Source of the DNA: an uncultured Sphingomonadaceae bacterium
Lineage (GTDB): Bacteria > Pseudomonadota > Alphaproteobacteria > Sphingomonadales > Sphingomonadaceae
Direction: 5' to 3'
DNA length: 64,000 nucleotides
NCBI GenBank assembly: GCA_947488625.1
Contig: CANKZR010000001.1
Location: 930,001-994,000, forward strand
A model generated the notes under the pieces. The model did no database searches, was not told where the DNA came from, and worked only from the letters and a program-made list of their open reading frames with translations. Position numbers and translations under genes: made by a program. Below, piece after piece: positions 3,183-58,113 of the stretch (the first letter of the stretch is position 1; every line of letters starts with the position of its first letter).

Positions 3183-3199
3183 CCTTGCGTGCCGTCATC

Positions 3200-3586: not shown

Positions 3587-3783
3587 GGCGCAGGGCTAGG
3601 CCGCCTGTTCAGCGGCTACCGCCTGCTTCTGCCTCCGTTACGGACGCGTAAGACTAGGGGGGATTACCTATTGCGCGACCTTGCTGGAGGGTCGCCACGC
3701 TCGGCAGTTTCCAGATTAATTTCGCTTTGGGGTGGATTGGAGCTTGCACCGTTTTCGTGCAAAACCTAAGGGCGGTCCCGGTC

Positions 3784-3862
<79 letters not shown>

Positions 3863-3897
3863 CTTGTGAGCCAAGAGCCCACAATGACCTTATTACC

Positions 3898-4896
3898 CTA
3901 GCGCTTCACCGCCGCCATTATGTCGCGCAAGTTGCTGGGGACTACCCCGCGCTGGTCGAGATAGGCGAAGATTTGCCGCCACCAGTCGTACAGGGCATCC
4001 AGATCATCCTCGTTGCGCACATAGGGCGTGGAACCCGGGCGCAAGGATGGACTGTGAAACGATAGCACGAGTACCGGCAATCCATCGTCCAGCGCGATGT
4101 CGATGCCGCGAATGGCTTCCTCTACACTCACGCCTTCAGGCGTCAGGGGCACGCGTTCAAGCAATCCCAGTCGTGCCAGTACGCCGCGCGTTGCCGGTGC
4201 GCGCCACAGGCGGGGATAGATGAAGTCACCCTGACGTCGCAACACACCCCAAAATGTGCTGGTGAGCGGCAACTCCAGCAGCGTCTTGGCGTCGTCCACC
4301 CAGTATGGCTGCGCGGGATGCGTGCGATAATCCGGACCCCCGCCGCTGGAATAGTCGAACAGGGGACGGACCGAGCTGTCTATGGCGATCCCGTGGTCTG
4401 CCAGCAGTTCTGCGGTGTTTGGCCCAAGTCCGTATCGCCCGGCGCGGTATATCAGCGGCGCAATGCCAAAACCGTTTTCTATGGCGTCGCGCAACGCCGT
4501 CAGCTTGGCGCTTTCCAGCTCTCTTGGCAGGTTGCCAGCGAAGGAATTGGATTGCGTCACCTCTTCGTGAAACGGCGGGTTTACCCACGGGTGCAGCTGT
4601 ACGCCAATCTCGGCGCGGCCCGTCTTTAAAGGTTCGCGCAATATCTCTTGCGCGGTGCGGGAATTGGCGATCGGCCAGTCGACCAGATAGATCGGGACAA
4701 CGCCGTGACCCTCGCAGAAGTCCTGAAACTTGGCGAGGTTGCGGACATGGCGCGTATCGTGACTATCGCGCGCCAGCGGTTGCTCCCAGTCAAAATCCTC
4801 TTCGGTATCGACTGTCAGCAGGAAGCGCGGCGTATCATCCGCAAATCGCGCCATGGCGTGTGGCGCCGGCGGTTCGAGCAGATTGCCCATCGCCAT
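3898..4896 (-). CDS. WalW-like polysaccharide-deacetylase-fold protein
   Basis: A 332-residue protein starting its conserved part with [13 protein letters not shown] (residues 25-37). This is the metal-binding D-x-E/D motif of the NodB/polysaccharide deacetylase fold in the WalW-like branch. An HPWVNPPF segment (102-109) fits the family's histidine region, and [17 protein letters not shown] near the end is a further conserved block. Members act on sugar polymers or are of unknown specificity. No signal peptide is seen, so it is probably cytoplasmic and may act on lipid-linked sugars. It lies 31 bases downstream of the degenerate kinase gene on the same strand and is probably co-transcribed with it. 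Confidence 0.75.
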
Positions 4897-6730: not shown

Positions 6731-6940
6731 TACTCATGCTCCGGCTGAAACGCGGTTAAGAAAACATCAACCATCGCATTAGCCGGGTCTTTCAGGGCAA
6801 GCATGGTTAAGGACCGATGCGTTGCAAAAGGGGACAATTGCCGTCATAGGGAACTTTGTTATACGACGACACATTATGACGATTTGTATGTTGCGCGAAC
6901 CGTGCGCTGGGTCACGGATCGCGCATAGGGGGACTATACG

Positions 6941-7408
6941 ATGTCCACACTCGACAAGATTGATCGCCGCCTGCTGGCAGAGCTTCAGGCAGAAGGCCGG
7001 GTTACCAATGTCGATCTGGCGCGCCGCGTCGGATTAACCGCGCCGCCGTGCCTGCGCCGCGTGCGTTCGCTTGAGGAAGACGGCGTGATTCGCGGCTATC
7101 ATGCCGATCTGGATGCGTCCAAACTCGGTTTCGCGATAACCGTTTTTGCCATGGTGTCGCTGCGCAGCCAGGCGGAGGAGGATCTGAAGGCCTTCGAGGA
7201 TCACATCGCCAAGCTCGAAGAGGTACGAGAGTGCCACATGCTTAATGGCGAGATCGACTTCATCCTGAAGATCGTGAGCAGGGACCTTCAGAGCTTCCAG
7301 GAATTTCTCACCAGCAAGCTGACCCCGGCACCCAACGTGGCAAGCGTGAAAACCTCGCTGACGATTCGCACCGCCAAGCACAAGCCGGGCGTTCCGCTGG
7401 AACAATAG
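6941..7408 (+). CDS. Lrp/AsnC-family transcriptional regulator
   Basis: A 155-residue protein with the standard Lrp layout. An N-terminal winged HTH covers LDKIDRRLLAELQAEGRV and NVDLARRVGLTAPPCLRRV (residues 4-45). A linker follows, then a C-terminal RAM effector-binding domain (about 65-150) with the family's GEIDFILKIV strand. Such proteins form dimers to octamers and respond to amino acids, commonly leucine or a branched-chain substrate. The start is supported by GGGGA ahead of the ATG. The 210-base gap to the divergent kinase gene should hold both promoters. The target genes cannot be deduced; Lrp proteins often autoregulate. Confidence 0.92.
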   Translation: MSTLDKIDRRLLAELQAEGRVTNVDLARRVGLTAPPCLRRVRSLEEDGVIRGYHADLDASKLGFAITVFAMVSLRSQAEEDLKAFEDHIAKLEEVRECHMLNGEIDFILKIVSRDLQSFQEFLTSKLTPAPNVASVKTSLTIRTAKHKPGVPLEQ

Positions 7409-7630
7409 GACACGGGCATCGACTGCCATTGCGTTCGCGAAGCGACGCGATGCGCATCAGCGTAAGACAGCCAAATCATTATCTGGAAATCTGCCGTGGC
7501 GAGATGTTGTCATCGCCTGAACGGGGCATACTGCGGTGCATTTGCGGGGACAGTTTCACCGTCGCCGGAGAAGATGCGATCACTGCGTAAGGTAGCCGGG
7601 TTCGGATTCGACTAACCGAGCCGACTGGGG

Positions 7631-8647
7631 TCAGATCAAACCGGACGTGAAGCCGGTGTAGGCGACATAGGCCGCCAGGAGGAGCCCGCCTTCACGCCGG
7701 GAAAGCCGCCCGCCGGTATAGGCAAACACCATGACCACCAGTGCGGCAAAGGCGGACAGCGGGAGGTCGAACTCCACGATCTGCACGGGGAAAGCGCTGG
7801 GCGCCGCCATGCCGGTAACACCGCCAATGAACAGCAGGTTGTAGATGTTGGAGCCCAGCACGTTGCCAAGCGCGATGTCGCTTTGCCCGCGTATCGCCGC
7901 GATGACGGACGTCACCAGTTCGGGTGCGGAGGTCCCGATGGCAACGATGGTAAGCCCGATGACCGTCTCGCTGACGCCAAGGGCGGAAGCGATGGACACC
8001 GCGCCGTTCACCAGCAACGTGCCTCCGCCAACGATCAGGGCAAGACCAACGATAAACAGCAGCAGCGCCTTCGCCAGGCTGCCCTCAGGCTTGTCATGCG
8101 GGGCGAGCTCGGGATCGAAACCTTCGGACGCGGCGGCCCTGTCATAAGCGGCACTATGGTCGACAGGCTGGCTTGCGCTTCCGTCGGCGGGCGCCAGCTT
8201 CTCCTGCTTGTAGGCGCTCCAGATGTACATCACGAGGCCGATCAGCAGGATCGTGGCCACGATCCGGTCCAGCCCGAGGGTGAAGGAGGCGACGATCATT
8301 GCCAGTGCAGCCGCAAGGCCCACACCGCCATCGCGCCACAGGGAAGTGCGATCGACTGCCATCGGAGCAATGAGGGCCGCGCTGCCCAGTACCAGCAGCA
8401 GGTTGGCGAGGTTGGAGCCCACGATATTGCCGATTGCCAAGCCCGGCGATCCAGCCAGTGCGGCCTGTACGCTGGCGGCCAGTTCCGGGCTGGAGGTGCC
8501 CAGCCCGACAACTACCAGGCCGATCAGCATGGGCGAAAGGTTGAGCCGTTCGGCAATCCGTACGGCTCCGCGCACCATGACATCCCCGCCGACCATCAGC
8601 AGGACGAGCCCTGCAAGCAAGAGGCCGATATCGGTGATTGAAGGCAT
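7631..8647 (-). CDS. Calcium/sodium antiporter of the CaCA family
   Basis: A 338-residue inner-membrane protein with about ten hydrophobic segments and the internal duplication of the Ca/cation antiporter family. The alpha-1 repeat (residues 47-87) contains GLGTSSPELAASV and IVGSNLANLL. The alpha-2 repeat (about 229-268) contains AIGTSAPELVTSV and VLGSNIYNLL. The paired Glu in TSSPE and TSAPE are the family's ion-binding residues. A hydrophilic stretch around residues 150-195 is the central cytoplasmic loop. It most resembles YrbG-type K+-independent exchangers. It is followed upstream by accC on the same strand with an 17-base gap, but functional linkage is not apparent. Confidence 0.93.
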   Translation of the reverse strand: MPSITDIGLLLAGLVLLMVGGDVMVRGAVRIAERLNLSPMLIGLVVVGLGTSSPELAASVQAALAGSPGLAIGNIVGSNLANLLLVLGSAALIAPMAVDRTSLWRDGGVGLAAALAMIVASFTLGLDRIVATILLIGLVMYIWSAYKQEKLAPADGSASQPVDHSAAYDRAAASEGFDPELAPHDKPEGSLAKALLLFIVGLALIVGGGTLLVNGAVSIASALGVSETVIGLTIVAIGTSAPELVTSVIAAIRGQSDIALGNVLGSNIYNLLFIGGVTGMAAPSAFPVQIVEFDLPLSAFAALVVMVFAYTGGRLSRREGGLLLAAYVAYTGFTSGLI

Positions 8648-8664: not shown

Positions 8665-10038
8665 TCAGCTTTCGGCGTCAGCCGCCTGTGCTTCCGCGCG
8701 CGTCGCCAGCCATTCTTCCAGCCACTTGATCGTGTAATTGCCGCTCAGCACGTCAGGCTGCTTCAACAATTCCTGATGGAGCGGGATCGAGGTTTTTACA
8801 CCCTGGATCACCATCTCTTCCAACGCGCGGCGCAAGCGCATCAGGCACCCCTCACGCGTGCGACCGTAAACGATCAGCTTGGCAATCATGGAATCGTAGT
8901 AGGGAGGGATAGTGTAACCCGCGTAGAGGCCGCTATCCACGCGCACATGCATACCGCCAGCCTGGTGATAATACTCGATCTTGCCGGGGCTGGGGGCAAA
9001 GGTGAACGGGTCTTCGGCATTGATCCGGCATTCGATGGCGTGACCGGTGAAAACGATATCTTCCTGCTTCACCGACAGATCCTTGCCATCGGCGATGCGG
9101 ATTTGTTCGCGCACCAGATCCATGCCGGTGATCGCTTCGGTAACCGGATGTTCCACCTGCAGGCGGGTGTTCATCTCGATGAAATAGAACTCGCCGTTCT
9201 CCCACAGGAACTCGATCGTGCCCGCGCCGCGATATTCCATCGCCGCCATGGCATCGGCCACGATGCCGCCCATGCGCAGGCGATCTTCCTGTGAGATAAC
9301 AGGCGACGGCGCTTCCTCGAACACCTTCTGGTGGCGGCGCTGCAAGGAACAATCGCGCTCGCCCAGGTGGATGGCATTGCCGCGGCCGTCGCCGAACACC
9401 TGGAATTCGATATGGCGCGGATTGCCGAGGTATTTTTCCAGATACATCGTGTCGTCGCCGAACGCGGACTTCGCCTCGTTCATGGCCTGCTTCACGAGCG
9501 GCTCGAGTTGGTCCTCGCTCGGGATGACCTTCATGCCGCGCCCGCCACCGCCGCTGGCGGCCTTGGCCAGTACGGGATAGCCGATTTCGGCGGCGACTTC
9601 GCGCATCTCGTCAAAATCGGAGACGGCACCATCGCTGCCGGGTACGAGAGGAAGGCCCAGAGCTCCGGCTGTTTTCTTTGCCTGCACCTTGTCGCCCATG
9701 GTGCGGATATGTTCGGGCTTCGGACCGATCCACGCAATGTCATGCGCTTCAACGATGTCGGCGAACTTCGCGTTCTCTGACAGGAAGCCGTAGCCAGGGT
9801 GGATCGCATCGGCCCCGGTGATTTCCGCAGCAGAGATGATCGCCGCGTGGTTCAGATAGCTTTCCGTGGCAGACGGCGGACCGATGCAGACCGCATGATC
9901 TGCCAGACGCACATGCATGGCATCGGCATCGGCGGTGGAGTGGACCGCCACCGTCTCTATGCCCATTTCATGCGCGGCGCGGTGAATGCGCAACGCGATT
10001 TCACCGCGGTTGGCGATCAGGATGCGGGAAATGCCCAT
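8665..10038 (-). CDS. accC: Acetyl-CoA carboxylase, biotin carboxylase subunit
   Basis: A 457-residue ATP-grasp enzyme that carboxylates the biotin carried by AccB using ATP and bicarbonate, the first half-reaction of malonyl-CoA formation for fatty acid synthesis. It opens with ILIANRGEIALRIHRAAHEM. The glycine-rich ATP lid KAASGGGGRGMKVI lies near residue 160, and the catalytic loop MNTRLQVEHPVTEAITG near 290. The length matches the family. It is the last gene of the minus-strand aroQ-accB-accC group, 12 bases after accB, an arrangement common in proteobacteria. Confidence 0.98.
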   Translation of the reverse strand: MGISRILIANRGEIALRIHRAAHEMGIETVAVHSTADADAMHVRLADHAVCIGPPSATESYLNHAAIISAAEITGADAIHPGYGFLSENAKFADIVEAHDIAWIGPKPEHIRTMGDKVQAKKTAGALGLPLVPGSDGAVSDFDEMREVAAEIGYPVLAKAASGGGGRGMKVIPSEDQLEPLVKQAMNEAKSAFGDDTMYLEKYLGNPRHIEFQVFGDGRGNAIHLGERDCSLQRRHQKVFEEAPSPVISQEDRLRMGGIVADAMAAMEYRGAGTIEFLWENGEFYFIEMNTRLQVEHPVTEAITGMDLVREQIRIADGKDLSVKQEDIVFTGHAIECRINAEDPFTFAPSPGKIEYYHQAGGMHVRVDSGLYAGYTIPPYYDSMIAKLIVYGRTREGCLMRLRRALEEMVIQGVKTSIPLHQELLKQPDVLSGNYTIKWLEEWLATRAEAQAADAES

Positions 10039-10050
10039 TTTGTGCGCCCC

Positions 10051-10545
10051 CTATGCAACGATGGCGAGGGGCTGGTCGAATTCAACCGGTTCGCCATTGC
10101 CGATCATCATTTCCTTCACCGTGCCATCCTTGGTGGCAGTGATCGGGTTCATCACCTTCATGGCTTCAACGATCAGCAGGGTATCGCCGGCCTTCACGCT
10201 GTCACCCACTTTCACGAAGTTGGGCGAGCCGGGATCGGGAGCCAGATAGGCTGTGCCGACCATCGGCGATTTTACCGCGTTGGCAAGATCGACAGGTGCA
10301 TCGCCATCCGGTGCGGCGTCCGTCGTGGATGAAGCTGGCGCAGGCGCTGCCGGTGCCGCAGGCGCGACATGCGATACGGGCGCGCTGGCCACGGCCGCGC
10401 GCGAGACGCGGATCTTGCGATCATCGTCCTCCACCTCGATTTCGGTCAGGCCGGTTTCGGCCAGGATATCGGCCAGTTCGCGAACCAGCGCGGTATCGAC
10501 GCTCAGTCCCCCCTTGCGGGCGGTAGTTGCCTTCTTCTCAGGCAT
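10051..10545 (-). CDS. accB: Acetyl-CoA carboxylase, biotin carboxyl carrier protein
   Basis: A 164-residue BCCP. An N-terminal helical region contains VRELADILAETGLTEIEVED. A flexible Ala/Pro linker spans about residues 52-82. The C-terminal biotinyl domain (about 88-164) has the biotin-accepting lysine K130 in EAMKVMNPI. That motif reads AMKVM rather than the textbook AMKM, the usual variant in AccB. The biotin shuttles between AccC and the carboxyltransferase. It lies between aroQ and accC. Confidence 0.97.
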   Translation of the reverse strand: MPEKKATTARKGGLSVDTALVRELADILAETGLTEIEVEDDDRKIRVSRAAVASAPVSHVAPAAPAAPAPASSTTDAAPDGDAPVDLANAVKSPMVGTAYLAPDPGSPNFVKVGDSVKAGDTLLIVEAMKVMNPITATKDGTVKEMMIGNGEPVEFDQPLAIVA

Positions 10546-46321: not shown

Positions 46322-49207
46322 CTAAATGCCCATGTCGAAAGCGCGGGTGCGTTCGCGGGCGAGGGTTGCGGTGAGTTCATTGGCGATGCTGCGTTCGGGC
46401 TTCCGATTGATGCCGAGTTCGCGGGACTTGGCGCGCAGCAGGCCTTCGACCTGCGGATCGCGTTCAAGCCTCTTCGCAAGTTCGGTTAGCTTGGCCGACA
46501 GGCGGGCTGCGCCTGCACGGTCGCCTTGCTGCTCAAGCTGCTTGCGCGCCGTGCTCAACCCTTGCCAGTCGCTGACAAAGCGCTCGGTTCGCAGCGCCGG
46601 ATCGGTGCGCACGGCGGCCTCGTGCTGCATGGCGCGCATGGCCTCCTGACTGCGTCCGCCAGCAGCCTCTGCAATCAGCTCAGAATGCCGCTCCAGCGCC
46701 TTGGCGAGATCGGCTGCGGCATGGGGTCGGATCGCTTCGAGCGCCTTTCCTGCCTTCTCCAGCGCGTCCTTCTGGTGCGGCAGGACGGGCAAGCCCTGAG
46801 CCTGCATCGTGCCGATATCGCCAAGCGCACGGGCGTAGCGTTCGACCGCGCGGCGCTGATCGTTCTGCGAGTTCGTTTTTGCCGGAAGCGGCTCAAGCTG
46901 GCGGGCCTGCGGACGGAAGTTTCCGAACATGGACTTGGCGCGTTGCGGCACCTGCCGAACCATCTCCAAGATCCGCTCGCGGAAGCTGATGCCGCGCAGT
47001 TCGGCAAAGGCCTGCTCGGGCCTGTAATCGCCCGCCATGTCCTTCCCGCGCTCACGGCTGAGCGTGCTGACAAGTTTGGACTGATCGGCAAAATCATCGC
47101 GGCCATAGTGAAGGGCAAGACCCTCGCGGTGGCGCGACATGGCGACATAGGCGGAATGGCTATCCATGCCCGGTGTGGCGAGCACATGGGCGCGGTCCAC
47201 CGTCATTCCCTGCGCCTTGTGGATCGTGGCGGCGTAACCATGATCGATGTGGGCATATTGCTTCGTATCGAAACCAACTTCGCGGCCATCGTCGGTGCGC
47301 ACGGCCATGCTTTGCGCGCTGGCCATCTCGACCGTGCCGAGTGTCCCGTTCTTTACTCCAAGCCCGCGCTCGTTGCGCAGGAATATGATGCGGTCTCCGG
47401 AAGCAAATTGCCGCTCACCGCGTGCCACATTGATCTTGGCATCCGCGCCCAAAGCGCCAGCCTCGCGCATCTTCTCACGTGCCATTGTGTTCAGCCCGCG
47501 GACCTCGTCATTGGTGTGGGTGAGAATGATCCGGCTGTCGCCAGGGCTGGCCTGCCGTTCCTGATTCCAGCGCTCGATCAGCGCCGTCCGTGCATCCTCG
47601 CGCGTGTCGGCGGCATGGACCATGCCGCGTTCTTCATAGGTGCCGATTGCTTCACCGGTTCGGTCCGTGGCGAGCTGCCTGGTGGCATCCTGTTGCCAAG
47701 CCGAAAGCTGGCGGCGAACTTCGCTGATCTCGACGCCGCCGTGGCGTTCGTGGATCGCCCGGAACGCCGCGCCCGCCTCGATGGCCTGAAGCTGCTGCTG
47801 GTCGCCGACCAGGACCACTTTCGCTCCGGCCTTTTCGGCATGGGACAGCACGCGCTCCATCTGCCGCGTGCCGACCATGCCTGCTTCGTCAATAACGAGC
47901 ACGTCGCGCGAAGTGAGCTGTTCGCGTCCCTTGCCCCACTGATGCTCAAGGCTGGCGATGGTGCGCGATGCGATGCCGGAGCCGTTTTCCAGACCCTCGG
48001 CAGCGATGCCGGACAGGGCTGCACCGCGCACAGTGTAGCCCGCGTTTTCCCATGCCTCGCGTGCCACGCCGAGCATCGCGCTTTTGCCCGTTCCTGCGTA
48101 GCCCACGACAATGGCAAGACCGCCGTTCTCGGTGACGTGCTCGAAGGCGGATTTCTGCTCGCCCGAGAGCACCAGGCCGCGCTTGGTAGCGCTGGCGAAT
48201 GCGGCGTTTCGTTGGACATCGCTGACGTTGTGCTTGGCCTGCGCGGCCATTGCTTCGGCAGCGCGGTACAGGCGCTGTTCGGTCTCGATCATCGCCCGCG
48301 AAGTGAACCGATCCTGCCCGCGTCCATCCTTGCCCAAAGCAATCAGGTCAGACGATGCGCGCACCGCATTGTAGGCGGCATCGAACTGCTCCTTTCCGTC
48401 GCTATGCCGGTGAACGAATGCGGCAAGGTCGCGCTTGGTGAACGTCGCTTGCTGGTGCGTGATGGCATCCAGGGCCAGCGCCGGATTGGCGATGATCCGC
48501 TCGCCGTTGCGCTGGGCAATGGCGCGGTGATCTTCGATCCGTTCCGCTTCCAGCCCGCGTCCACCAATGCGCGAGGCGGCGGGACCGATCTTGTCCTGTG
48601 GTTCGAGCGCAATACCCTGCGCTTCCAGGCTGCGATGATCGATCCGCGCATCGATGTCGCGCTCCACCAGCGCGCGGTTGACATGATCGGCCCAGCGTTC
48701 GCGCCATTGCTCAATGAGCGCGGTCTTGTTCCAGTCGCGGACCTTTGCGCCAAAGCCGTCCTTGGTCACTTCGCGCATGGTCAGCATGACGTGCGCATGG
48801 GGCTTGGCCTTGCCATCTTCGCCGATATCCCAATGGACATTGAGATCGGCGATCATGCCTTTCTCAACGAACTCGGCTTTCACGAACTCGCGCGCCAGCT
48901 TGATGTTGTCTTTCTTTGGAAGCTCGCGGGGGAGGGCGAACTCGACCTCGCGGGCAAGCTGTGCATCCTTGCGCTTCTCGGCGGCCTCGACCGCGTTCCA
49001 CAAGGTTGCCCGGTCGGCAAAGGCTTCGGGTGCGCCTTTGGGCAGCATCACTTCGGAATGCAGGACGCCCGCCTTGTTGGTGAAGTCGTGGTCGCGGTCG
49101 ATGCGTTCATCGTGCAACCGCTCGCCAGCACGATAGGCCGCAGCCGCAACGGCACTGCGTCCGCTCGACCTTCCGATAACCTTTGCGCTGAAGTGAAAGA
49201 TTGCCAT
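46322..49207 (-). CDS. traA: Ti-type conjugal relaxase-helicase TraA (MOB-Q)
   Basis: A 961-residue fusion. The N-terminal MobA/MobL relaxase (1-250) has the nicking Tyr region AAAAYRAGE (Y25) and the metal-binding histidines H125 (NVHWD), H137 and H139 (PHAHVML). A RecD-like helicase follows, with Walker A GYAGTGKSAML (about 367-377), DEAGMVGTRQ and, near residue 700, a QGMTV motif and AYVAMSRHREG. A C-terminal helical region completes it. It nicks oriT, covalently binds the 5' end and unwinds the strand for transfer. ATG 49207 begins the relaxase motif MAIFHFSAKVIGRSSGRS. It diverges from traC across the oriT. Confidence 0.95.
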   Translation of the reverse strand: MAIFHFSAKVIGRSSGRSAVAAAAYRAGERLHDERIDRDHDFTNKAGVLHSEVMLPKGAPEAFADRATLWNAVEAAEKRKDAQLAREVEFALPRELPKKDNIKLAREFVKAEFVEKGMIADLNVHWDIGEDGKAKPHAHVMLTMREVTKDGFGAKVRDWNKTALIEQWRERWADHVNRALVERDIDARIDHRSLEAQGIALEPQDKIGPAASRIGGRGLEAERIEDHRAIAQRNGERIIANPALALDAITHQQATFTKRDLAAFVHRHSDGKEQFDAAYNAVRASSDLIALGKDGRGQDRFTSRAMIETEQRLYRAAEAMAAQAKHNVSDVQRNAAFASATKRGLVLSGEQKSAFEHVTENGGLAIVVGYAGTGKSAMLGVAREAWENAGYTVRGAALSGIAAEGLENGSGIASRTIASLEHQWGKGREQLTSRDVLVIDEAGMVGTRQMERVLSHAEKAGAKVVLVGDQQQLQAIEAGAAFRAIHERHGGVEISEVRRQLSAWQQDATRQLATDRTGEAIGTYEERGMVHAADTREDARTALIERWNQERQASPGDSRIILTHTNDEVRGLNTMAREKMREAGALGADAKINVARGERQFASGDRIIFLRNERGLGVKNGTLGTVEMASAQSMAVRTDDGREVGFDTKQYAHIDHGYAATIHKAQGMTVDRAHVLATPGMDSHSAYVAMSRHREGLALHYGRDDFADQSKLVSTLSRERGKDMAGDYRPEQAFAELRGISFRERILEMVRQVPQRAKSMFGNFRPQARQLEPLPAKTNSQNDQRRAVERYARALGDIGTMQAQGLPVLPHQKDALEKAGKALEAIRPHAAADLAKALERHSELIAEAAGGRSQEAMRAMQHEAAVRTDPALRTERFVSDWQGLSTARKQLEQQGDRAGAARLSAKLTELAKRLERDPQVEGLLRAKSRELGINRKPERSIANELTATLARERTRAFDMGI

Positions 49208-49236
49208 GTCGGCAATCCAGTTACACTCCAAACGCA

Positions 49237-49264
49237 ACGTCGGCACGACGTATAAGCGCGCCCT
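49237..49264. other. Candidate origin of transfer (oriT)
   Basis: A perfect 6-base inverted repeat, ACGTCG-GCA-CGACGT (49237-49251), abuts TATAAGCGCGCCCT (49251-49264). The latter resembles the nick region of the RSF1010/Ti class (TAAGTGCGCCCT). The site sits in the 173-base gap between divergent traA and traC, where Ti-type plasmids keep oriT. The nick is expected near the GCGC|CC step. Confidence 0.75.
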
Positions 49265-49380: not shown

Positions 49381-49686
49381 ATGCGCAAACCCCGCGATTT
49401 TGATTCGGAACTGAAGGCACTTGCCGACAAGGCGAAGCAGTTGAAGGAGCGCCGTGTGCGCGACCTTGGTGCGCTGGTCATGGCAACCGGAGCCGACGCG
49501 CTCGATGCCGAGACCCTTGCAGGCGCACTGCTCGATGCAGCGGCCAACACAGACAAGGGAACTGGGGAGGGCTGGCGCAAGCGCGGCGCGGCCTTTTTTC
49601 AGGGCAAGTCACGCGACACTGCGAGCGGACCTCGCCAGCGGCCGGAAGGCACTCTCCCGCTCGATGGCGGCGCGGCATCGGCTTGA
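49381..49686 (+). CDS. traC: Conjugal transfer protein TraC-like
   Basis: A 101-residue basic protein: MRKPRDFDSELKALADKAKQ, LKERRVRDLGALVMATGADA and LDAETLAGALLDAA. This is the small TraC-type protein encoded beside oriT in Ti/MOB-Q systems, thought to be part of the relaxosome. GGAG precedes the ATG. It faces traA across the oriT, and the next gene, traD, starts about 22 bases after its stop. The last 15 residues look non-conserved. Confidence 0.85.
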   Translation: MRKPRDFDSELKALADKAKQLKERRVRDLGALVMATGADALDAETLAGALLDAAANTDKGTGEGWRKRGAAFFQGKSRDTASGPRQRPEGTLPLDGGAASA

Positions 49687-49939: not shown

Positions 49940-51169
49940 TTAGACTTCTTCGTAGTAGATCGCATCGACAAGGGCGGCTCGACAATCCCAAGCTTCCGCT
50001 TGCTTACCGCTGGGGCGTTTGGAGTTATACCAATCCGCCATCTTGATTGGCTCCACGACTCGTTCCCAATAGTTGTCCAAGCCTAATGTCGATGGAGCAA
50101 AGCTAAGTGCCTCTGCTAGGTTTGCCGTGTTGCCATTGTTCACGCACACAAAGACGTCAGGCCGTTTCATCGCCAGCAGCCTGGTCGCGGTGGGATGCCT
50201 TCCAACCCTTGCCGAATTTGAGAACGCGTCGGTAAACAGTTCGCAGAATTCATCGTAATCGGCTTTCGTGACCAAACCACGACTTGGAATTGCGTCAACT
50301 GCTTTTGCGATGTCCTCATCTTGGTTCGCGATTAAATTGGTGAACGAACCGGAGCCTTGCATCGATCCGAACCAGCCGATTTGATATTTCTCCAGCCCAG
50401 AATCCGTGACAGCATCGGGATGGACGATCCCCGCCACCGCCTTCCATTCTGCCACCGACAATTCAGAGAACGACCCCACCTTGGCGAACAGCGATTGCAG
50501 GTAGCGGAGAAACTTCATCCGCGTCGCAAAATGATGGTTTGGGTCCTTGCGGACCTCTCGAATGAATGTGGGCCAGTCCATCTTGAGCAACTCGGAATCG
50601 ATGCGCTGAAAATCTTTGGTTTCTGTCGGAAGCACTGGTGCTGCTGGTCGAGGTTTCCTGGCGGCAATTGCGGCTTGCCGCCGGTAGCTTTCGGCCAGCA
50701 GTTTGGTCACGGGCTGCCGATGCGGGGCGAATGAATCGAACATAGCAATAAGACTAGCGATTGCCGGGTCGGAAACACTGCAGCGGAGATGCACGCAAGC
50801 TTCGACATTGGAGCCGAGTCCGCCCTTGGTGAAGTTTGCGCTTCCGACGATTGCTTCGGCATTCTCGCCGGTCACGAACAGATATGCCTTCGGGTGGAAG
50901 CAAGCTCCCTGTTTCTTGAAAACGAATGAGTTTCGCACTCCTTGGAGGGCATCCACAAAGTCCGGATCGGTGGCGCAAAAATCCAACCCGACAGTGACTG
51001 ATTCAAACTTCCGCTTGTTCTCGATGAGCTTGTCGGCAACTGGCCCGCAGTTGGCCCAGGCGACCGCCATGTAGATCTTGTCATGCTTTGGAATGAGGCG
51101 AAGGAGCGTCTTGCGGAGCGAACTCGCATCGAGAATCGAAACTTTCAATTTGCATCTCCCACGTGCCAT
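49940..51169 (-). CDS. PLD-fold protein linked to the type I restriction operon
   Basis: A 409-residue protein. The N-terminal half (about 10-130) is a phospholipase-D-like nuclease domain with the HKD-type motif H92-x-K94 in CFHPKAYLF and GSANFTKGG (S110, N112). Only one such motif is seen, as in nuclease dimers (Nuc/BfiI type). The C-terminal half has no recognised domain and ends GKQAEAWDCRAALVDAIYYE. GGAAGGAGGGG, a strong site, precedes the ATG. It is the last gene of the hsd operon, 19 bases after hsdM, so it is likely an additional nuclease effector; the biochemical role is inferred. Confidence 0.7.
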   Translation of the reverse strand: MARGRCKLKVSILDASSLRKTLLRLIPKHDKIYMAVAWANCGPVADKLIENKRKFESVTVGLDFCATDPDFVDALQGVRNSFVFKKQGACFHPKAYLFVTGENAEAIVGSANFTKGGLGSNVEACVHLRCSVSDPAIASLIAMFDSFAPHRQPVTKLLAESYRRQAAIAARKPRPAAPVLPTETKDFQRIDSELLKMDWPTFIREVRKDPNHHFATRMKFLRYLQSLFAKVGSFSELSVAEWKAVAGIVHPDAVTDSGLEKYQIGWFGSMQGSGSFTNLIANQDEDIAKAVDAIPSRGLVTKADYDEFCELFTDAFSNSARVGRHPTATRLLAMKRPDVFVCVNNGNTANLAEALSFAPSTLGLDNYWERVVEPIKMADWYNSKRPSGKQAEAWDCRAALVDAIYYEEV

Positions 51170-51188: not shown

Positions 51189-52814
51189 TCATGGGAGAGG
51201 TGGCAGACCCAGTTCCTTCAGGTAGGAATTGTGTTCGTCCGTCGCCGCACGGATGCGCTCATCCAACGCGAGTAGCTTCTGATGAACTGCCCCGAGATTT
51301 ATCTCTGGTTCCGGCTCGACCGTGCTGATGTAGCGTGAGATATTGAGGTTGAAATCGTTCTCCTCGATCTCGCCCATATCGACGCGGCGGGAATAGCGTG
51401 GCTCTTCAGTTCGGAGCTGATAGGTCGAGACGATCTTGCCGATGTGGTCGGGCTTGCCGTCCTTCCCGTCGCCCAGGTAATTCTGCCGCTTGCCCTTCTC
51501 GAAATGCTCTGCGGCGTTGATGAACAACACATCATCGGGCTTCTTGCACTTCTTCAACACCAGTATGCATACCGGGATGCCGGTGGAATAGAACAAGTTC
51601 GCGGGCAGCCCAATTACGGTATCGATGTGCCCGTCCTTGAGTAGCTTGGTGCGGATGCGCGCTTCGGCTCCTCCACGGAAAAGCACACCGTGCGGGAGGA
51701 TGATGGCCATGACGCCATCGTCTTTGAGATAATGGAACCCGTGCAAGAGAAACGCGAAGTCGGCGGCGGATTTCGGAGCAAGGCCGTAGTTCTTGAAGCG
51801 CGCATCTTCTCCCAAGGATTCGCTCGGGTCCCAGCGATAACTGAAGGGGGGATTGGCGACGATCGCATCGAAGCGCGGCATCTTTGCAGGGTTCGTTTCG
51901 CGCAGCTTATCCCAGTCATTGGTGAGCGTGTCGCCATGGAAAATCTCGAACTCGGTGTCCTTTACCCCGTGCAGCAGCATGTTCATGCGCGCGAGGTTGT
52001 AGGTAGTGATGTTCTTTTCCTGGCCGTAGATTTTGCCGATCCCGTGAGGCCCCATGCGATGTCGCACATTCAGCAACAGCGATCCCGATCCGCAGGCAAA
52101 GTCCATCAGACTGTCCATATGCGCGCGGGAGCCTGTCGCCGGATCCTGCCCGTCCAGAGTTACGATCTGCGAGAGGATATCGGACACGAATTGCGGCGTG
52201 TAGAATTCGCCAGCCTTCTTTCCTGATCCTGCGGCAAACTGGCCAATGAGATACTCGTAGGCATCCCCCAGCGTGTCGCTGTCGGTCGAAAATTCCTTCA
52301 GGCCTTTGGCGATTTCGGTGATGATCTTGCACAGGGCGGCATTGCGGTCGGTGTAGGTCTTGCCCAGCTTGTCCGAAGCGAGATTGATTTCGGAAAACAG
52401 TCCGCGAAACGTGCTCGCGAAGGATTCCGTCTCGATGTACTCCAAGCCCTTCTGAAGGGTGTCTAACAGCTCCTTTTGCTGCTTCCGCGCAAGCTCGGCG
52501 ATGCTGGTCCAGAGATATTCGGGGCGAATGACGTAATGCACCTTCCGCCGCATCTGCTTTTCAAATTCCTCGGTGTCCTCAGGATTCTCCGCGTACCAAA
52601 TAGATAGCGGCGTGCGCTTATCCTCATCCTTCAACTTCGGAAAATCTGACCCAAGCTCCTTGGCCGCTGCCTGCTCATAGTTGTCGGACAGGTAGCGGAG
52701 GAAAAGGAAAGCGAGCATATAGTCACGGAAGTCGTCCGCGTTCATCGCGCCTCTAAGGGAATCGGCGATAGCCCACAGGGTCTTGCCAAGTTTCTTCTGC
52801 TCTTGGTCGGTCAT
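51189..52814 (-). CDS. hsdM: Type I restriction-modification methyltransferase subunit
   Basis: A 541-residue N6-adenine methyltransferase. The N-terminal HsdM_N helical domain is followed by the catalytic SAM domain with MDFACGSGSLLLNVRH (near 238) and the NPPFSY catalytic motif (near 320). A C-terminal SPEVEEND-like helix region (GEIEENDFNLNISRYIS) follows. It forms M2S with HsdS, and with HsdR makes the full restriction enzyme. Its ATG overlaps the stop of the upstream ATPase gene by 4 bases, so both are translationally coupled. Confidence 0.96.
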   Translation of the reverse strand: MTDQEQKKLGKTLWAIADSLRGAMNADDFRDYMLAFLFLRYLSDNYEQAAAKELGSDFPKLKDEDKRTPLSIWYAENPEDTEEFEKQMRRKVHYVIRPEYLWTSIAELARKQQKELLDTLQKGLEYIETESFASTFRGLFSEINLASDKLGKTYTDRNAALCKIITEIAKGLKEFSTDSDTLGDAYEYLIGQFAAGSGKKAGEFYTPQFVSDILSQIVTLDGQDPATGSRAHMDSLMDFACGSGSLLLNVRHRMGPHGIGKIYGQEKNITTYNLARMNMLLHGVKDTEFEIFHGDTLTNDWDKLRETNPAKMPRFDAIVANPPFSYRWDPSESLGEDARFKNYGLAPKSAADFAFLLHGFHYLKDDGVMAIILPHGVLFRGGAEARIRTKLLKDGHIDTVIGLPANLFYSTGIPVCILVLKKCKKPDDVLFINAAEHFEKGKRQNYLGDGKDGKPDHIGKIVSTYQLRTEEPRYSRRVDMGEIEENDFNLNISRYISTVEPEPEINLGAVHQKLLALDERIRAATDEHNSYLKELGLPPLP

Positions 52815-53920
52815 GCAGCAGTCACCTGTTTGGGCAGATGAAGCACGAAATTGTACTTCTCTTTGAGTTTGTTGAAAACTTCATCAAACATCTCTCGGTT
52901 GTCTGGCGTCAGTTCATCGCTCTCGAAATAGTAGACCTTCTTGTGCGAAAGCGTGTTGATGATATTGGCCGACACCTGCTCATCGTCGATGCCGATTTGT
53001 TGAAGGACATATCCGAACTGTCCAACCCCGAGGAATGAGGCGACATTCTCCAGCGCTTGCCGAAGTAGAGCGAAGTGGAACGCCTTGACCTCATTATCGC
53101 GCTGAGCCTGCTCCAGCAGTTGCAGCAGCCGCAAATGGTATAGGAAGACATCATTCGAGCTGTTTTCCAAGACGATGTTTCCATCCCGCGTGCTGAGCAT
53201 GCAAACACGCGTGGCCTTACTGAACTTGCCCGCTTTCTGGCCCTTCTTGAGCCAGTCTGCGAGGATCGCAAAGAAGCCAAGATGGTGCGTTGTGATGATC
53301 AGCTTCCGCTTCTCGAAATGATCTTCAATGAGGTCGAACAGCGTTGAGGCTGTGATGAAGATGTTGTGATCGTCTAGGCTGGACACCGGATCGTCGATAA
53401 AGAAGTGCGAAGACTGTTTATCAGCCCAACCTTCAACCTCGAAAAGAGCGAGGAAAAAGCACCAAACAAAAATGCGCTCTTCGCCTCGAGAAATCTTGAT
53501 GGGCACCTTCGAGACGACATTTGGATCGTCCGAAGATGCCTCTTCGTAGAAGAACATTATGGAATCAATGCCCTCCTCGGGATTGGCATGATTGATGAAT
53601 TCAAACCGATAAGTAGGGCGATAGCGGTTCAGTTTGTCGCGGATGTTGTCTTCGGAAAGTGAGCTGTGGAACTTGTTCAGGCTGCTTTGTCTGACATCGA
53701 GCCTGATGGGTGAATCTTCGTCTACGCCGTCATTTTCCCATACGAAGATGTCTTCACTATATGCGTTGTAGTAGACACCAGTATGTGAGCCATCGGGTTC
53801 CTTTGTGAGGTCCTTGTAGGCAACTGATAGCCTAGTCTTTCCCGTCGCATTAAAGGCATAGACAAGGAATATTTGTTCCTTTGCATCTCGGATTTCGCTC
53901 GCGATTGCAGCGTGGCTCAT
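52811..53920 (-). CDS. ABC-type ATPase in an hsd operon; candidate PrrC-like anticodon nuclease
   Basis: A 369-residue protein. The N-terminal ABC ATPase has Walker A YAFNATGKTRL (21-31), signature ISRGEER (143-149), Walker B HFFIDDPVSSLDD (172-184) and the switch histidine in TTHH (H212). The C-terminal about 100 residues show R287-x3-E291 (LLRQALENVASFLG) and H326 (NTLSHKK). PrrC of E. coli is 396 residues and uses R320-x3-E324 and H356, so length, domain order and spacing fit closely. PrrC is held inactive by its type I enzyme and cuts tRNA-Lys when restriction is disarmed. Embedding between hsdS and hsdM supports this role; the function is inferred. Confidence 0.65.
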   Translation of the reverse strand: MSHAAIASEIRDAKEQIFLVYAFNATGKTRLSVAYKDLTKEPDGSHTGVYYNAYSEDIFVWENDGVDEDSPIRLDVRQSSLNKFHSSLSEDNIRDKLNRYRPTYRFEFINHANPEEGIDSIMFFYEEASSDDPNVVSKVPIKISRGEERIFVWCFFLALFEVEGWADKQSSHFFIDDPVSSLDDHNIFITASTLFDLIEDHFEKRKLIITTHHLGFFAILADWLKKGQKAGKFSKATRVCMLSTRDGNIVLENSSNDVFLYHLRLLQLLEQAQRDNEVKAFHFALLRQALENVASFLGVGQFGYVLQQIGIDDEQVSANIINTLSHKKVYYFESDELTPDNREMFDEVFNKLKEKYNFVLHLPKQVTAA

Positions 53921-53921
53921 T

Positions 53922-55127
53922 TTACGAGTTCTCTTGCGTTGGAAAGAGTTGCTGCATCAGAGCTGCTTTGTGAGAATCCAGAGTCTCTACCCGGTCGTTT
54001 TGCGCGCGTATCAACTCGTCAATGGTCAAAAGACAGCTAGCGATCATTTGTTGTTCACCCGTTTGAATATCTGGAAACGCAACTGCCTTCTGCTTCAAGT
54101 CAGTGAAATGTCTTTTGTAATCGCCGGAGTGCACCGGATAGGCTTGTAGCGCACCGTGCAGATACTCGACCGTCATTTTCTCGTTGGGTACGATGATCTT
54201 TATGCCGTCCGCACCTTGTGCGAATGGGAAGTCCACCAGCTTCAATGTGCACGTGTGATCACCAAACACAACCACTGGCAACGGTTCCCCGATCACCGAG
54301 CCAGCATCGTCGGTCCAACCTGCGACAATGCTTTGGCTTTGATCTATAATTGGGAATTTGCCTTGCTGCTTGTACTCCGATGTAGGGAGCTTTTTGGGCG
54401 GAGTGACAGTGTCCAAGTTTTCACCAAGCGGTGCCCACTGCCAATCCCCCGTACCTTGAAATTCCGGAAAGCGTAGACGCGGTTTCGCTTCGCCTGGCAA
54501 AGGAAAGAGGTGTTGGCTCAGCCCAAGCCTGAACTTCCGCAGCTGATTCAATTTTTCAGCTTCGGAATCGATGAGGCCGTCAATTGAAGAAAGGCAAGCA
54601 GCAATCTTCGATTGCTCGGAAACATCAGGAAGAGACAACTGCAAGCGAGCCAAGTCGCGGTAATAGACACGGACACGCACCCCTCCGTCGCCAGACCCAT
54701 TGACAAACGAGTCCCATTGCTTGGCTCGACGGAATTGATCGAGGTAGAAAGGCAATAGCCGTGTAGGCTTTGCCTGCTGAAGACAACGAAAGACAACGTA
54801 ATCAGGACTTACAAGCACGTCCTCCTGGCCTTGCCACCTGGCTATCGACCCAATGTTCAGCCGCATTGGATTATAGGCAAACCAGTTGTTCTTGACGACT
54901 TTGTAGCGTGTTGTGTCAGCGCCGACCAACCGTTCTTCCATTGGAACGATGCCGTCATCTTTGCGAACACCCATAACAAATTCGGATGGCAGATGCCCGT
55001 GATTCCTTGCCGATGGCTCCTCGGTGACATCGCCCAAGCAGACAGTATGAATGGGTAGGCCTTCAAACTCCGGAAATCGTAGTTCCGAAATTGGGCGCTC
55101 GCCATTTGCGGACCCTTTATTGCTCAT
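53922..55127 (-). CDS. hsdS: Type I restriction-modification specificity subunit
   Basis: A 401-residue DNA-recognition subunit with two target-recognition domains, each followed by a conserved helix. TRD1 (about 15-185) ends SKIAACLSSIDGLIDSEAEK, the first spacer helix. TRD2 (about 210-370) ends QQMIASCLLTIDELIRAQND, the second. It should recognise a bipartite sequence, but the target cannot be read. It begins within the end of hsdR (11-base overlap) and ends one base before the ATPase gene. TRDs are the fast-evolving part of these systems. Confidence 0.95.
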   Translation of the reverse strand: MSNKGSANGERPISELRFPEFEGLPIHTVCLGDVTEEPSARNHGHLPSEFVMGVRKDDGIVPMEERLVGADTTRYKVVKNNWFAYNPMRLNIGSIARWQGQEDVLVSPDYVVFRCLQQAKPTRLLPFYLDQFRRAKQWDSFVNGSGDGGVRVRVYYRDLARLQLSLPDVSEQSKIAACLSSIDGLIDSEAEKLNQLRKFRLGLSQHLFPLPGEAKPRLRFPEFQGTGDWQWAPLGENLDTVTPPKKLPTSEYKQQGKFPIIDQSQSIVAGWTDDAGSVIGEPLPVVVFGDHTCTLKLVDFPFAQGADGIKIIVPNEKMTVEYLHGALQAYPVHSGDYKRHFTDLKQKAVAFPDIQTGEQQMIASCLLTIDELIRAQNDRVETLDSHKAALMQQLFPTQENS

Positions 55128-58113
55128 AGGCGCTAAGCCCTGAGATTTCTCGACCTTGCGCCAGCTTGCGCAGCAGCGGAGCCAAATCCTCCATCAAGGC
55201 CAGTTCACGTTGCGTGCGTGCCTTCCACCCAAGATCGAGGGGAGCCATAAGTTCGCTCAACGCTTCCCCATCGAAGATGCGACGGCGAAGTACGAAGTCC
55301 ACAAAATCCTGCAGGTCAGTCGCGTCGATGCCGTGCTTTTCTGCCATCTCGGTCAGGAGGCGCTCCTGCTTGTCGGCCTTGAAGCGTTCGTAGCCTTCGC
55401 GGATTTCCTTCTCATCCAATGGCTGATCGGCAGACAGGCTGCGAATATATTCGGCGATGTCGTCGCGGTCGTCGATGAACTTTGCGTCTGACTGGATCAG
55501 CCCGATAAGCTCGTCCCGGCTCATCTTGGTCTTTCCGGGCAGGTTCTGTGTGTACCGCGCGATCAGGCCCATGATATAATCATAGTCGATCACCGCAGAG
55601 GCAAAGAGCACGAACTCGAAATCGAGCTGATCGACCTCCGGATCGTCCGCACCGCCAGGTTTGTCCTGCTTCTCCTTCAAACGTTTGGCCGTCTCGAGGT
55701 ACATCGTGCGGAAGCCCTGAAGCTCATCGGCGGGAACGGTCTGCTCGATCTGCTCCGCCTGTTCTGCACTCAGGTCCGTGTATTGATCGAGCTGGGTCTT
55801 CAGCCGCTGCACATCCTTGAACAGCGTGATGAACTGGCCGCGTGCCGCATCGCCCTTCAGGTTGGGGACGTCCTCTGGTGCATTGGACAATCCCTGCGAT
55901 TCCATAAATTCGCCGAGCGACTGCACAGCCGATTGCAGGCTCTGGATGACCTGCGGTGCCGGATCGACGAGCCAGATTTGGCGTGGATTGTCGATCTTCT
56001 CTCCGGAGAAGAGAGCGATAGCTTCGTTTACGGCGGGTTCCTGCTGCCTGAAATCGAGAATATTGCCGTATGGCTTGGAATCGTTGAGCACGCGGTTGGT
56101 GCGCGAGAATGCCTGTATCAACCCATGGTACTTCAGGTTCTTGTCGACATAGAGCGTGTTCAGGAACTTTGAATCGAAGCCGGTCAGCAACATGTCGACA
56201 ACGATGATGATGTCGATCTTCTCCGCGCCCTTCTTGGGCATATCGGCATTCGGAAACTGCTGATCCTTTATGCGCTTCTGGACATCCTGATAGTAGAGGT
56301 CGAACTCGCCAATGCGGTGGTTGGTGTCGTACCGCGCGTTGTAGTCCTCGATGATGGCCTTAAGCGCCTTCTTCTTCGCCTCCGGGTCTTGCGCGTTGTC
56401 ATGCTTTTCCTGCGGCAGATCCTCTTGAATCTGCTGCACGTCTTTGTTGCCCTCGGCAGGGGGAGAGAAAACGCACGCGATCTTCAGCGGTTTGAACTCG
56501 GGATCGGCAGCTAGCCGCGCAGCCTGAATTTCGGCGAATTTCTCATAGTACTCGATGGCGTCGTTGATCGAGCTTGTGGCGAGAACCGCGTTGAATTTCC
56601 GGTTGGCGGTCGCGGCGTCATGCTTGAGAAGGATCGTCTCAATCACCTTCTCCTTCTTCAGCGCCTCGCCAGGTTTGGGCAGCTTCTCCCCTTCCGGTTT
56701 GTAGTAGTCGATGTGGAACCGGAGCACGTTGCGGTCCTCGATGGCGTGCGTGATCGTGTACTGGTGCAGGCTTTGCTGAAACAGGTCGTCAGTGGTGCGG
56801 TAGCTGCCCTGGTCACCTTCAGCTTGCTGGTAGCTGGCATTCTGCTCGAAAATCGGGGTGCCGGTGAAACCGAAGAGTTGAGCCTTGGGAAAGAATTCCT
56901 TGATGGCTTTGTGGTTCTCGCCGAACTGGGACCGGTGGCACTCGTCGAAGATTATGGCGATCCGCTCATCCCTTAGCGGCTCCAGCCTTTCCTTGTAGGA
57001 TCGCGCTTTGCCCTTCTGACGACGGTTCGTGTCGTCGAGCGCCAAGCCAAGCTTCTGGATGGTGGTAACGATGACTTTGTCAGCGCGGTCGTCTGACAAG
57101 AGGCGGCGGACAAGTGTTTCGGTATTGGTATTCTCTTCGACGCAACCTTCCTGGAACCGGTTAAATTCTTCGCGTGTCTGCCGGTCGAGGTCTTTGCGAT
57201 CCACCACAAACAGGCATTTTGCTATGTCGTCGTTGTCTTTCAACAACGTGGACGCTTTGAATGACGTCAAAGTCTTCCCGCTGCCAGTCGTGTGCCAGAC
57301 ATAGCCATTTCCGCAGTTCTGATGAATGCACTCCACAATCGCCTTCACGGCGTAGATTTGATAGGGGCGCATCATCATCAGCTTCTGCTCGCTCGCAACG
57401 AGCACGGTGTAGCGGCTGACCATCTGACCCAGCGTGCATTTGGCGAGGAACTTTTCGGCAAAGCTGTCGAGATGTGTGATCTTCTTGTTGTCCTCGCTAG
57501 CAAACTGATAAATCGGCAGAAACCGTTCATCAGCGTTGAAGCTGAACTGGCGAGCGTTGTTGTTGGCGAAATACCAAGTGTCAGTGCGATTGCTGACGAC
57601 AAAAATTTGAATAAAGCACAGCAGCGTCTTCCCGTACCCGTTGCCGGGGTCGCTCTTGTAATCGACAATCTGCTGCATCGCACGACGGGGGCTGACGGCC
57701 ATCGTCTTCAGCTCGATTTGAACGGCAGGAACACCGTTGATCAGCAGGATGACGTCATAGCGATGGTGGCTGTTGTCGGTGTTGATCCGAAGCTGATTCA
57801 CGACCTCGAACGTGTTTTTGCACCAGTCCTTGATGTTGACGAGAGTGTAGTTGAGCGGCGTACCGTCATCGCGCTCAAAGCTGCTGTAGCCCCTTAGAAT
57901 GTTGGCGGCAGCAAATACATCAGGGGTGGTAATGTCCTCCAGGAGGCGCTGGAATTCCGTATCGGTCAACCGGACGCGATTCAACGCCTCGAACTTTTCC
58001 CGAAAATTCTGTTCGAGCGTCGCACGGTCCCGGATGTCCGGGCGATATACATACTTGAGCTCTTGGAGCTTCGATACGAGTTCTTGCTCGATGGCACTTT
58101 CCGACGTGCTCAT
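55117..58113 (-). CDS. hsdR: Type I restriction enzyme subunit R
   Basis: A 998-residue motor nuclease. The N-terminal PD-(D/E)xK nuclease has RYDVILLINGVPAVQIELKT with D120, E134 and K136. Helicase motifs include Walker A WHTTGSGKTLTSF (near 270), DECHRSQFG (near 390), VDMLLTGFDS and AFSRTNRVLND. A C-terminal helical part (about 800-998) binds HsdM. It translocates DNA and cuts at random distance from unmodified sites. The gene overlaps the stop of the small HTH gene by 4 bases and hsdS by 11, so the operon is tightly coupled from its first gene. Confidence 0.97.
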   Translation of the reverse strand: MSTSESAIEQELVSKLQELKYVYRPDIRDRATLEQNFREKFEALNRVRLTDTEFQRLLEDITTPDVFAAANILRGYSSFERDDGTPLNYTLVNIKDWCKNTFEVVNQLRINTDNSHHRYDVILLINGVPAVQIELKTMAVSPRRAMQQIVDYKSDPGNGYGKTLLCFIQIFVVSNRTDTWYFANNNARQFSFNADERFLPIYQFASEDNKKITHLDSFAEKFLAKCTLGQMVSRYTVLVASEQKLMMMRPYQIYAVKAIVECIHQNCGNGYVWHTTGSGKTLTSFKASTLLKDNDDIAKCLFVVDRKDLDRQTREEFNRFQEGCVEENTNTETLVRRLLSDDRADKVIVTTIQKLGLALDDTNRRQKGKARSYKERLEPLRDERIAIIFDECHRSQFGENHKAIKEFFPKAQLFGFTGTPIFEQNASYQQAEGDQGSYRTTDDLFQQSLHQYTITHAIEDRNVLRFHIDYYKPEGEKLPKPGEALKKEKVIETILLKHDAATANRKFNAVLATSSINDAIEYYEKFAEIQAARLAADPEFKPLKIACVFSPPAEGNKDVQQIQEDLPQEKHDNAQDPEAKKKALKAIIEDYNARYDTNHRIGEFDLYYQDVQKRIKDQQFPNADMPKKGAEKIDIIIVVDMLLTGFDSKFLNTLYVDKNLKYHGLIQAFSRTNRVLNDSKPYGNILDFRQQEPAVNEAIALFSGEKIDNPRQIWLVDPAPQVIQSLQSAVQSLGEFMESQGLSNAPEDVPNLKGDAARGQFITLFKDVQRLKTQLDQYTDLSAEQAEQIEQTVPADELQGFRTMYLETAKRLKEKQDKPGGADDPEVDQLDFEFVLFASAVIDYDYIMGLIARYTQNLPGKTKMSRDELIGLIQSDAKFIDDRDDIAEYIRSLSADQPLDEKEIREGYERFKADKQERLLTEMAEKHGIDATDLQDFVDFVLRRRIFDGEALSELMAPLDLGWKARTQRELALMEDLAPLLRKLAQGREISGLSAYEQ

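Follow-up and report, generated by a model that had tools for sequence, protein, structure and literature searches.

The stretch of DNA analyzed here (64,000 nucleotides from an uncultured Sphingomonadaceae bacterium; hereafter the window) carries a prrC homologue inside a type I restriction-modification operon. Judged by its sequence, the 369-amino acid (aa) product is a member of the known PrrC family, placed in a deeply separate branch, and it is very probable that it is an anticodon nuclease kept silent by the type I restriction enzyme of the same operon. This assignment draws on four features: PrrC homology over the whole length of the protein, the motifs of an ABC ATPase, a conserved Arg/Glu/His triad and a tight hsdR-hsdS-prrC-hsdM layout. 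As a PrrC member, the window gene is ordinary; its added value is that two PrrC types, referred to below as B1 (the clade of the window protein) and B2, are found on one restriction chassis.

Identification of the PrrC homologue

The window prrC is an intact open reading frame (ORF) on the minus strand that runs from ATG to TGA (53920-52811). This confirms the extent (52811..53920) and length (369 residues) given in an earlier reading of the same DNA made from its letters alone (the sequence-only reading), which was silent on the strand. Every motif listed in that reading is present in the translated ORF: GKT at residues 27-29, ISRGEER at 143-149, IDDPVSSLDD at 175-184, TTHH at 210-213, and R287, E291 and H326. 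Among these are the Walker A Lys and Thr, signature SRGEE, IDDPVSSLDD stretch and switch His of an ABC ATPase. The PADLOC PrrC model matches residues 3-361 of the window protein (model positions 21-349 of 372) with an E-value of 7.7e-104 and 345.7 bits, while the second-best PADLOC family reaches 48.5 bits. In Pfam, the broad AAA_13 model alone scores above cut-off (E-value: 1.7e-17).

Following tblastn comparison of the window protein with plasmid sequences, 113 records were matched, every one at less than 60% identity, and several plasmid records among the 40 matches listed are annotated as "anticodon nuclease". A 396-aa protein with this annotation, encoded on an E. coli plasmid at a locus of the order M-S-prrC-R, shows 33.5% identity over 95% of the window protein. 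The E. coli PrrC residue numbers cited in the sequence-only reading (R320, E324 and H356), as well as D287, are exact in this protein, and its triad columns align with those of the window protein. Identity to the E. coli-type reference, L002, is 35.4%.

The sequence-only reading had turned on the conservation of R287, E291 and H326 across homologues. We aligned 55 PrrC rows (9 of the E. coli type, 27 of B1 with the window counted among them, and 19 of B2), with loci L020-L033 left out because PrrC aligned there only in part or over a short length. The triad occurs in 55/55 rows, R287, E291 and H326 of the window protein corresponding to R320, E324 and H356 of E. coli PrrC, and the Walker A Lys and Thr, the Walker B aspartates and the switch His are each kept in 55/55 as well. 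The same three triad residues are invariant in alignment A1, which has 22 rows taken from the window and 24 loci (L038-L040 were left out). The stretch around YNAYSEDIFVWEND is also conserved, and is an unconfirmed candidate for the 15-residue "PrrC box" of the N-domain. PrrC proteins are described as 341-416 aa in length and RloC proteins as 658-897 aa with a coiled-coil/zinc-hook insert (PMC2610378); at 369 aa, the window protein is inside the former range and far under the latter.

The whole window protein was modeled with a predicted local distance difference test (pLDDT) score of 80.9 and a predicted template modeling (pTM) score of 0.78. Its C-terminal 120 residues were modeled as an all-helical, five-helix domain (pLDDT 82.9). 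In a fold search with this domain, a designed protein ranked first and the HEPN entries 2hsb and 4nqf (two chains) ranked second, third and fifth, with a TMq of 0.43-0.51 and E-values of about 1. These ranks are in keeping with, but no proof of, the published assignment of the PrrC C-terminal domain to the HEPN fold (PMC3710099). The whole-chain search gave five matches at an E-value of 0.001 or better, all of them chains of one retron complex (TMq 0.19-0.24), followed by a mixture of ATPases and other proteins. A PDB sequence search with the window protein returned nothing relevant, the top match being a thiol transferase (E-value: 0.0041).

Operon structure and gene order

On the minus strand, the order of genes in the window is hsdR, hsdS, prrC, hsdM and a 409-aa gene. 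The operon and the genes just outside it are as follows:

55117..58113, minus strand: hsdR, 998 aa, type I restriction subunit and first gene of the operon (PADLOC REase_I, 1129.8 bits over 3-987; Pfam HSDR_N, SWI2_SNF2 and EcoR124_C)
53922..55127, minus strand: hsdS, 401 aa, specificity subunit (PADLOC Specificity_I, E-value: 7.2e-85; Pfam Methylase_S)
52811..53920, minus strand: prrC homologue, 369 aa, clade B1, with an ABC ATPase N-terminal part and a C-terminal anticodon-nuclease-like domain carrying R287, E291 and H326
51189..52814, minus strand: hsdM, 541 aa, methylase subunit (NCBIfam hsdM TIGR00497, 360.5 bits; Pfam HsdM_N and N6_Mtase)
49940..51169, minus strand: PLD-like gene, 409 aa, 19 bp past hsdM, with a weak phospholipase-D-like stretch (PLDc_2, E-value: 4.6e-05, under the Pfam cut-off)
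49381-49686, plus strand: TraD-like gene, just outside the operon
46322-49246, minus strand: MobA/MobL relaxase-helicase gene, just outside the operon

The end of hsdR overlaps the start of hsdS by 11 bases, a single nucleotide separates the hsdS stop from the prrC start (TAA-a-ATG), and the prrC stop shares the letters ATGA with the hsdM start. The ATGA coupling that the sequence-only reading had reported was thus read directly in the window, and its placement of the gene between hsdS and hsdM of a type I operon is borne out by the gene calls and by the PADLOC and Pfam matches of the neighboring genes.

The layout is shared by related loci. In a count of 50 rows restricted to the hsd genes and prrC, which leaves room for other genes between prrC and hsdM, the first hsd gene to follow prrC is hsdM in 41/41 rows that are not of the E. 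coli type, the window among them. An upstream hsdR is present in 30 of these 41 rows, and in the other 11 none was seen within the stretch covered. In the E. coli-type rows, hsdR follows prrC in eight of nine, while the short stretch of the ninth showed no hsdR. Spacing between prrC and hsdM, measured in 43 loci of the two clades with the order hsdR-hsdS-prrC-hsdM (R-S-C-M), is mostly tight: 22 have a 4-base overlap, 35 lie within 60 bp and five exceed 500 bp. The 4-base overlap occurs in both R-S-C-M clades, with the letters ATGA read in the window only.

According to the sequence-only reading, this gene order had not been seen described. It is in fact already in print with phage-defense and tRNA data, which rules out R-S-PrrC-M as a new order: PrrC170 of Klebsiella quasipneumoniae was cloned as HsdR-HsdS-PrrC-HsdM with 300 nt upstream of hsdR, is reported to be active against T1 and T7 and to arrest growth upon overexpression, and has tRNA sequencing that points to tRNA-Lys as its target (PMC11555353). 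Phage-borne tRNAs are described as rescuing phages from PrrC170 (PMC11555353). The order in E. coli is given in a review as hsdM-hsdS-prrC-hsdR (PMC3014915).

Three types of PrrC

In a maximum-likelihood tree of the 55 PrrC rows, B1 (27 rows) is supported at 100/100 and its stem is 1.77 changes per column long. Support for the E. coli type (9 rows) is likewise 100/100. B2, the second R-S-C-M group (19 rows), is less firm at 91/92; its members include the Klebsiella and IncC plasmid proteins L003, L058 and L059. How the three types join is uncertain because the B1 stem and the E. coli-type stem, both of them long, run into each other in the tree, in which L072 is also a long row. L073 was assigned to the E. 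coli type by a motif rule and placed with B2 by the tree, and the B2 label was used for it in later comparisons. Median PrrC identity is 62.0% within B1 and 61.2% within B2 (at least 46.4% for any pair in either clade), and 33.8% between the two (30.6-38.1%). B1 members come from hosts of the Pseudomonadota, Cyanobacteriota, Bacteroidota, Bdellovibrionota, Spirochaetota, Verrucomicrobiota and Campylobacterota, many of them metagenome-assembled. This sampling is non-random: a single search that started from the window protein supplied 24 of the 27 B1 rows, and the B2 rows were gathered from plasmids, viral contigs and searches with the PrrC model and with HsdM.

Two PrrC types on one restriction chassis

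The restriction subunits do not follow this division. Median HsdM identity between B1 and B2 loci is 75.2% (65.4-86.1%), compared with 75.5% and 77.0% within the clades, and median HsdR identity is 68.6% (56.9-83.7%), compared with 70.5% and 67.6%. On an HsdM tree of 47 rows (L068 and L069, which have no prrC, and loci with fewer than 430 aligned HsdM residues were left out), the B1 label needs nine changes, six of them forced by well-supported branches. None of 200 HsdM bootstrap trees (0%) had a branch that set B1 apart from all other rows, and an HsdM tree constrained to keep B1 together was rejected by the approximately unbiased (AU) test (p = 4e-81). The label is still clustered on this tree, with nine changes against a mean of 15.6 after shuffling, which suggests that B1 and B2 are exchanged occasionally and not freely. 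The HsdR tree, built from 31 rows by a quick method without bootstrap (loci under 600 aligned HsdR residues left out), gives six changes, four of them forced; this result is weaker, as only seven B2 rows are included, and the seven changes counted for the three-group label on this tree were matched by 29 of 200 shuffles.

A similar pattern is seen at the DNA level. L037 (B1) and L073 (B2) are 79% identical across hsdR and the beginning of hsdS and 77% identical across hsdM, with no match over prrC in this comparison. The same holds for L034 and L058, which match in hsdR and in hsdM but not in prrC. For L071 and L075, there is a 44-base match inside prrC and another that starts approximately 50 bases before the prrC end.

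B1 and B2 PrrC proteins are only about 34% identical, yet they occur on one interleaved HsdM/HsdR lineage, and prrC therefore looks like an exchangeable effector cassette. The simplest reading, which is well supported by these comparisons, is that prrC has probably been swapped repeatedly at its site between hsdS and hsdM. A possible alternative is that an ancestor carried both PrrC types and that one or the other was lost time and again; among the loci whose genes were listed, none carries two types. Among the open-licence papers listed, none describes such an exchange on one chassis in its title or the opening of its abstract, which is weak evidence. One chassis with two types amounts to a natural experiment: because it carries PrrC proteins that are a third identical, the surface through which PrrC is silenced should lie among the few residues shared by both.

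The tRNA target

The sequence-only reading held that the protein cuts tRNA, with the tRNA-Lys cleavage of E. coli PrrC as its model. PrrC homology and the triad support the first part, but not the second. In E. coli PrrC, D287 is reported to contact the modified wobble base, and the recognition stretch varies among PrrC proteins (PMC3014915), so that D287 is not a defining PrrC feature. Since D287 is not conserved in the rows aligned here (counts are given below), tRNA-Lys cleavage cannot be transferred from E. coli PrrC on sequence grounds. The column is occupied by S, G, C, D, P, I, F or K in B1, and gaps make the alignment around it uncertain.

This variation raises the alternative that B1 is an anticodon nuclease that cuts a tRNA other than tRNA-Lys, or one that responds to another inhibitor, and that B1 and B2 are alternative warheads on one chassis. 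Such an arrangement would fit the 30.6-38.1% PrrC identity between the two clades alongside HsdM and HsdR medians near the within-clade values, the interleaving of labels on both trees and the varied D287 column of B1. However, B2 also lacks D287 (0/19) and PrrC170, which is probably a B2 protein, targets tRNA-Lys, so that another target cannot be predicted from the absence of D287 alone and the case for a different tRNA is weakened. The membership of PrrC170 in B2 is suggested by its gene order, its Klebsiella host and its identity to E. coli PrrC (35%, compared with 34.5% for the B2 protein L058). In addition, the clustering of labels on the HsdM tree indicates that exchange of the two types was occasional. 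We therefore regard the alternative as possible but doubtful. More speculative still is the proposal that B1 and B2 replace each other on one chassis as phages escape one type (for example, through a resistant phage tRNA), with B1 cutting a different tRNA or site. If B1 does hit another tRNA, this would show that the targets of such guards diversify, plausibly as a response to tRNAs carried by phages. PrrC170, found to target tRNA-Lys and probably a member of the other R-S-C-M clade, is a better guide than E. coli PrrC to the B1 target.

Proposed function

By analogy with E. coli PrrC and PrrC170, the latent nuclease would be docked on the complex of HsdR, HsdM and HsdS. A phage anti-restriction factor that disturbs this complex would release PrrC or switch it via its nucleotide-binding domain, upon which a tRNA (tRNA-Lys is the default guess) would be cut in the anticodon loop, translation would stop and the infection would be aborted. 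Through the ATGA overlap, synthesis of HsdM may be coupled to that of PrrC, such that no toxin would be made without its silencer. The PrrC-like, guarded, second-line defense that the sequence-only reading proposed is strongly supported by homology, triad and linkage, all of which are sequence evidence.

Several observations weigh against this function. First, the P-loop Gly at E. coli position 43, kept in 9/9 E. coli-type and 17/19 B2 rows, is replaced by Ala, Ser or Thr in 27/27 B1 rows. Second, D287 is an Asp in 7/9 E. coli-type, 3/27 B1 and 0/19 B2 rows, and is a Ser in the window protein. Third, the median identity of B1 is only 31.6% to the E. coli type and 33.8% to B2. Fourth, the fold search of the C-terminal domain against the PDB gave no match at an E-value of 0.001; the structural check that the sequence-only reading had proposed yielded a helical fold and no significant PDB match. 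Fifth, when set against the E. coli-type locus, window HsdM shows an identity of only 36% and window HsdR one of only 33%, and the window system is therefore not clearly of the same type I family. Finally, no experiment on any B1 member is described in the titles or abstract openings of the open-licence papers listed, although this is weak evidence of absence.

The Walker A glycine, mostly kept by the other two types and missing from B1, could indicate that the ATPase is dead or has been repurposed, with assembly of the restriction complex as its only role. This is very unlikely, as the Walker A Lys and Thr, the Walker B Asp pair, the switch His and the triad are kept in all 27 B1 rows, which are mutually 49-96% identical, and residues out of use would not be expected to be conserved in this way. 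An RloC-type nuclease, sensing DNA breaks on its own and merely located in the operon, is extremely improbable: although Pfam AAA_13 and the PADLOC PDC-S06 models match the C-terminal part, RloC identity is ruled out by the 369-aa length and by a model without a long helix pair, the PrrC model far outscores the next PADLOC family, and the constant hsdM linkage contrasts with RloC proteins, described as rarely linked to restriction-modification (PMC2610378). A PrrC-family nuclease silenced by its own restriction enzyme is the function that we prefer.

Distribution and accessory genes

The locus is sporadic, as HsdM was found at an E-value of 1e-100 in 5/296 genomes of the order and in 0/7 of the same-genus genomes listed. 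Of 398 genomes of the phylum searched with the PrrC model, 55 matched at an E-value of 0.001, 16 near full-length with that of the window included; the remaining matches are partial, mostly inside much longer reading frames, and are RloC-like by length alone. Close HsdM proteins (E-value: 1e-170) are present in 12/398 genomes of the phylum. prrC precedes hsdM in nine of these 12 (the window included) and a different gene does so in three, RhuM-like in two (Pfam was run on one) and Bro-N in one.

RhuM-family genes lie between prrC and hsdM in L048 (10084-11094), L041 (10376-11377), L036 (10041-11096) and L040 (10038-11135), and before hsdM without prrC in L076 and L077 (3202-4218, minus strand, in both). 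They were identified by Pfam in L076, L048 and a partial copy in L042, and by likeness only in the others. L073 has a YhcG/DUF1016 nuclease gene between prrC and hsdM (9309-10307), L056 has DUF4917 and Schlafen-AlbA_2 between hsdS and prrC (5100-7779), and L082 has a Bro-N gene directly before hsdM (3124-3975, minus strand) with no prrC seen. The site next to hsdM thus appears to serve as a general slot for accessory genes. Short duplicated pieces of the hsdM 5' end (approximately 28-50 codons) are found upstream of the RhuM gene in L042 (2432-2761) and in L076 and L077 (4209-4424, minus strand), and in the latter two loci the hsdM stub runs into an apparent hsdS end; these stubs are possibly scars of cassette exchange. 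In genome G670, L066 1444-2835 encodes HsdM residues 1-432 beside a B1 prrC and L070 1501-2619 (minus strand) encodes residues 223-541 with a PLD-like gene, neither hsdM match being complete.

The 409-aa gene of the window shows weak likeness to DrmC in addition to phospholipase D. It has counterparts 3' of hsdM in L034 (95% identity) and 3' of the partial hsdM in L070 (76%), and is possibly a fifth operon gene encoding an extra effector. Because the relaxase and TraD-like genes adjoin the operon, it may be part of a mobile or once mobile element.

Comparison with known systems

RloC resembles the window protein in its ABC ATPase with a C-terminal R-x3-E...H arrangement, and differs in that it is approximately twice as long, has a zinc-hook insert and is described as rarely linked to restriction-modification genes (PMC2610378). 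E. coli PrrC, encoded with EcoprrI, shares the triad, ABC motifs, length and a place after hsdS in a type I operon. It differs in its gene order (hsdM-hsdS-prrC-hsdR), in D287, which is not common to the window protein, and in Gly43, which is replaced in B1. EcoR124 is the type IC prototype, and the question of type IC membership is raised by the EcoR124_C domain of window HsdR and the TIGR00497 match of HsdM, set beside the 33-36% identity to the E. coli-type locus.

The Klebsiella plasmid operons L058 and L059 have the same order as the window with B2 PrrC proteins, that of L058 being 32.8% identical to the window's. Three B2-type plasmid operons carry two extra genes between hsdR and hsdS (L003 1910-5694, L058 1934-5721 and L059 937-4724), for which the L058 annotations are TrlF family AAA-like ATPase and RNA-binding domain protein; none is mentioned in the available description of PrrC170 (PMC11555353). 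Like the window operon, PrrC170 has the order HsdR-HsdS-PrrC-HsdM and an ABC ATPase domain, and its reported 35% identity to E. coli PrrC (PMC11555353) is comparable to the 35.4% of the window protein with E. coli-type L002.

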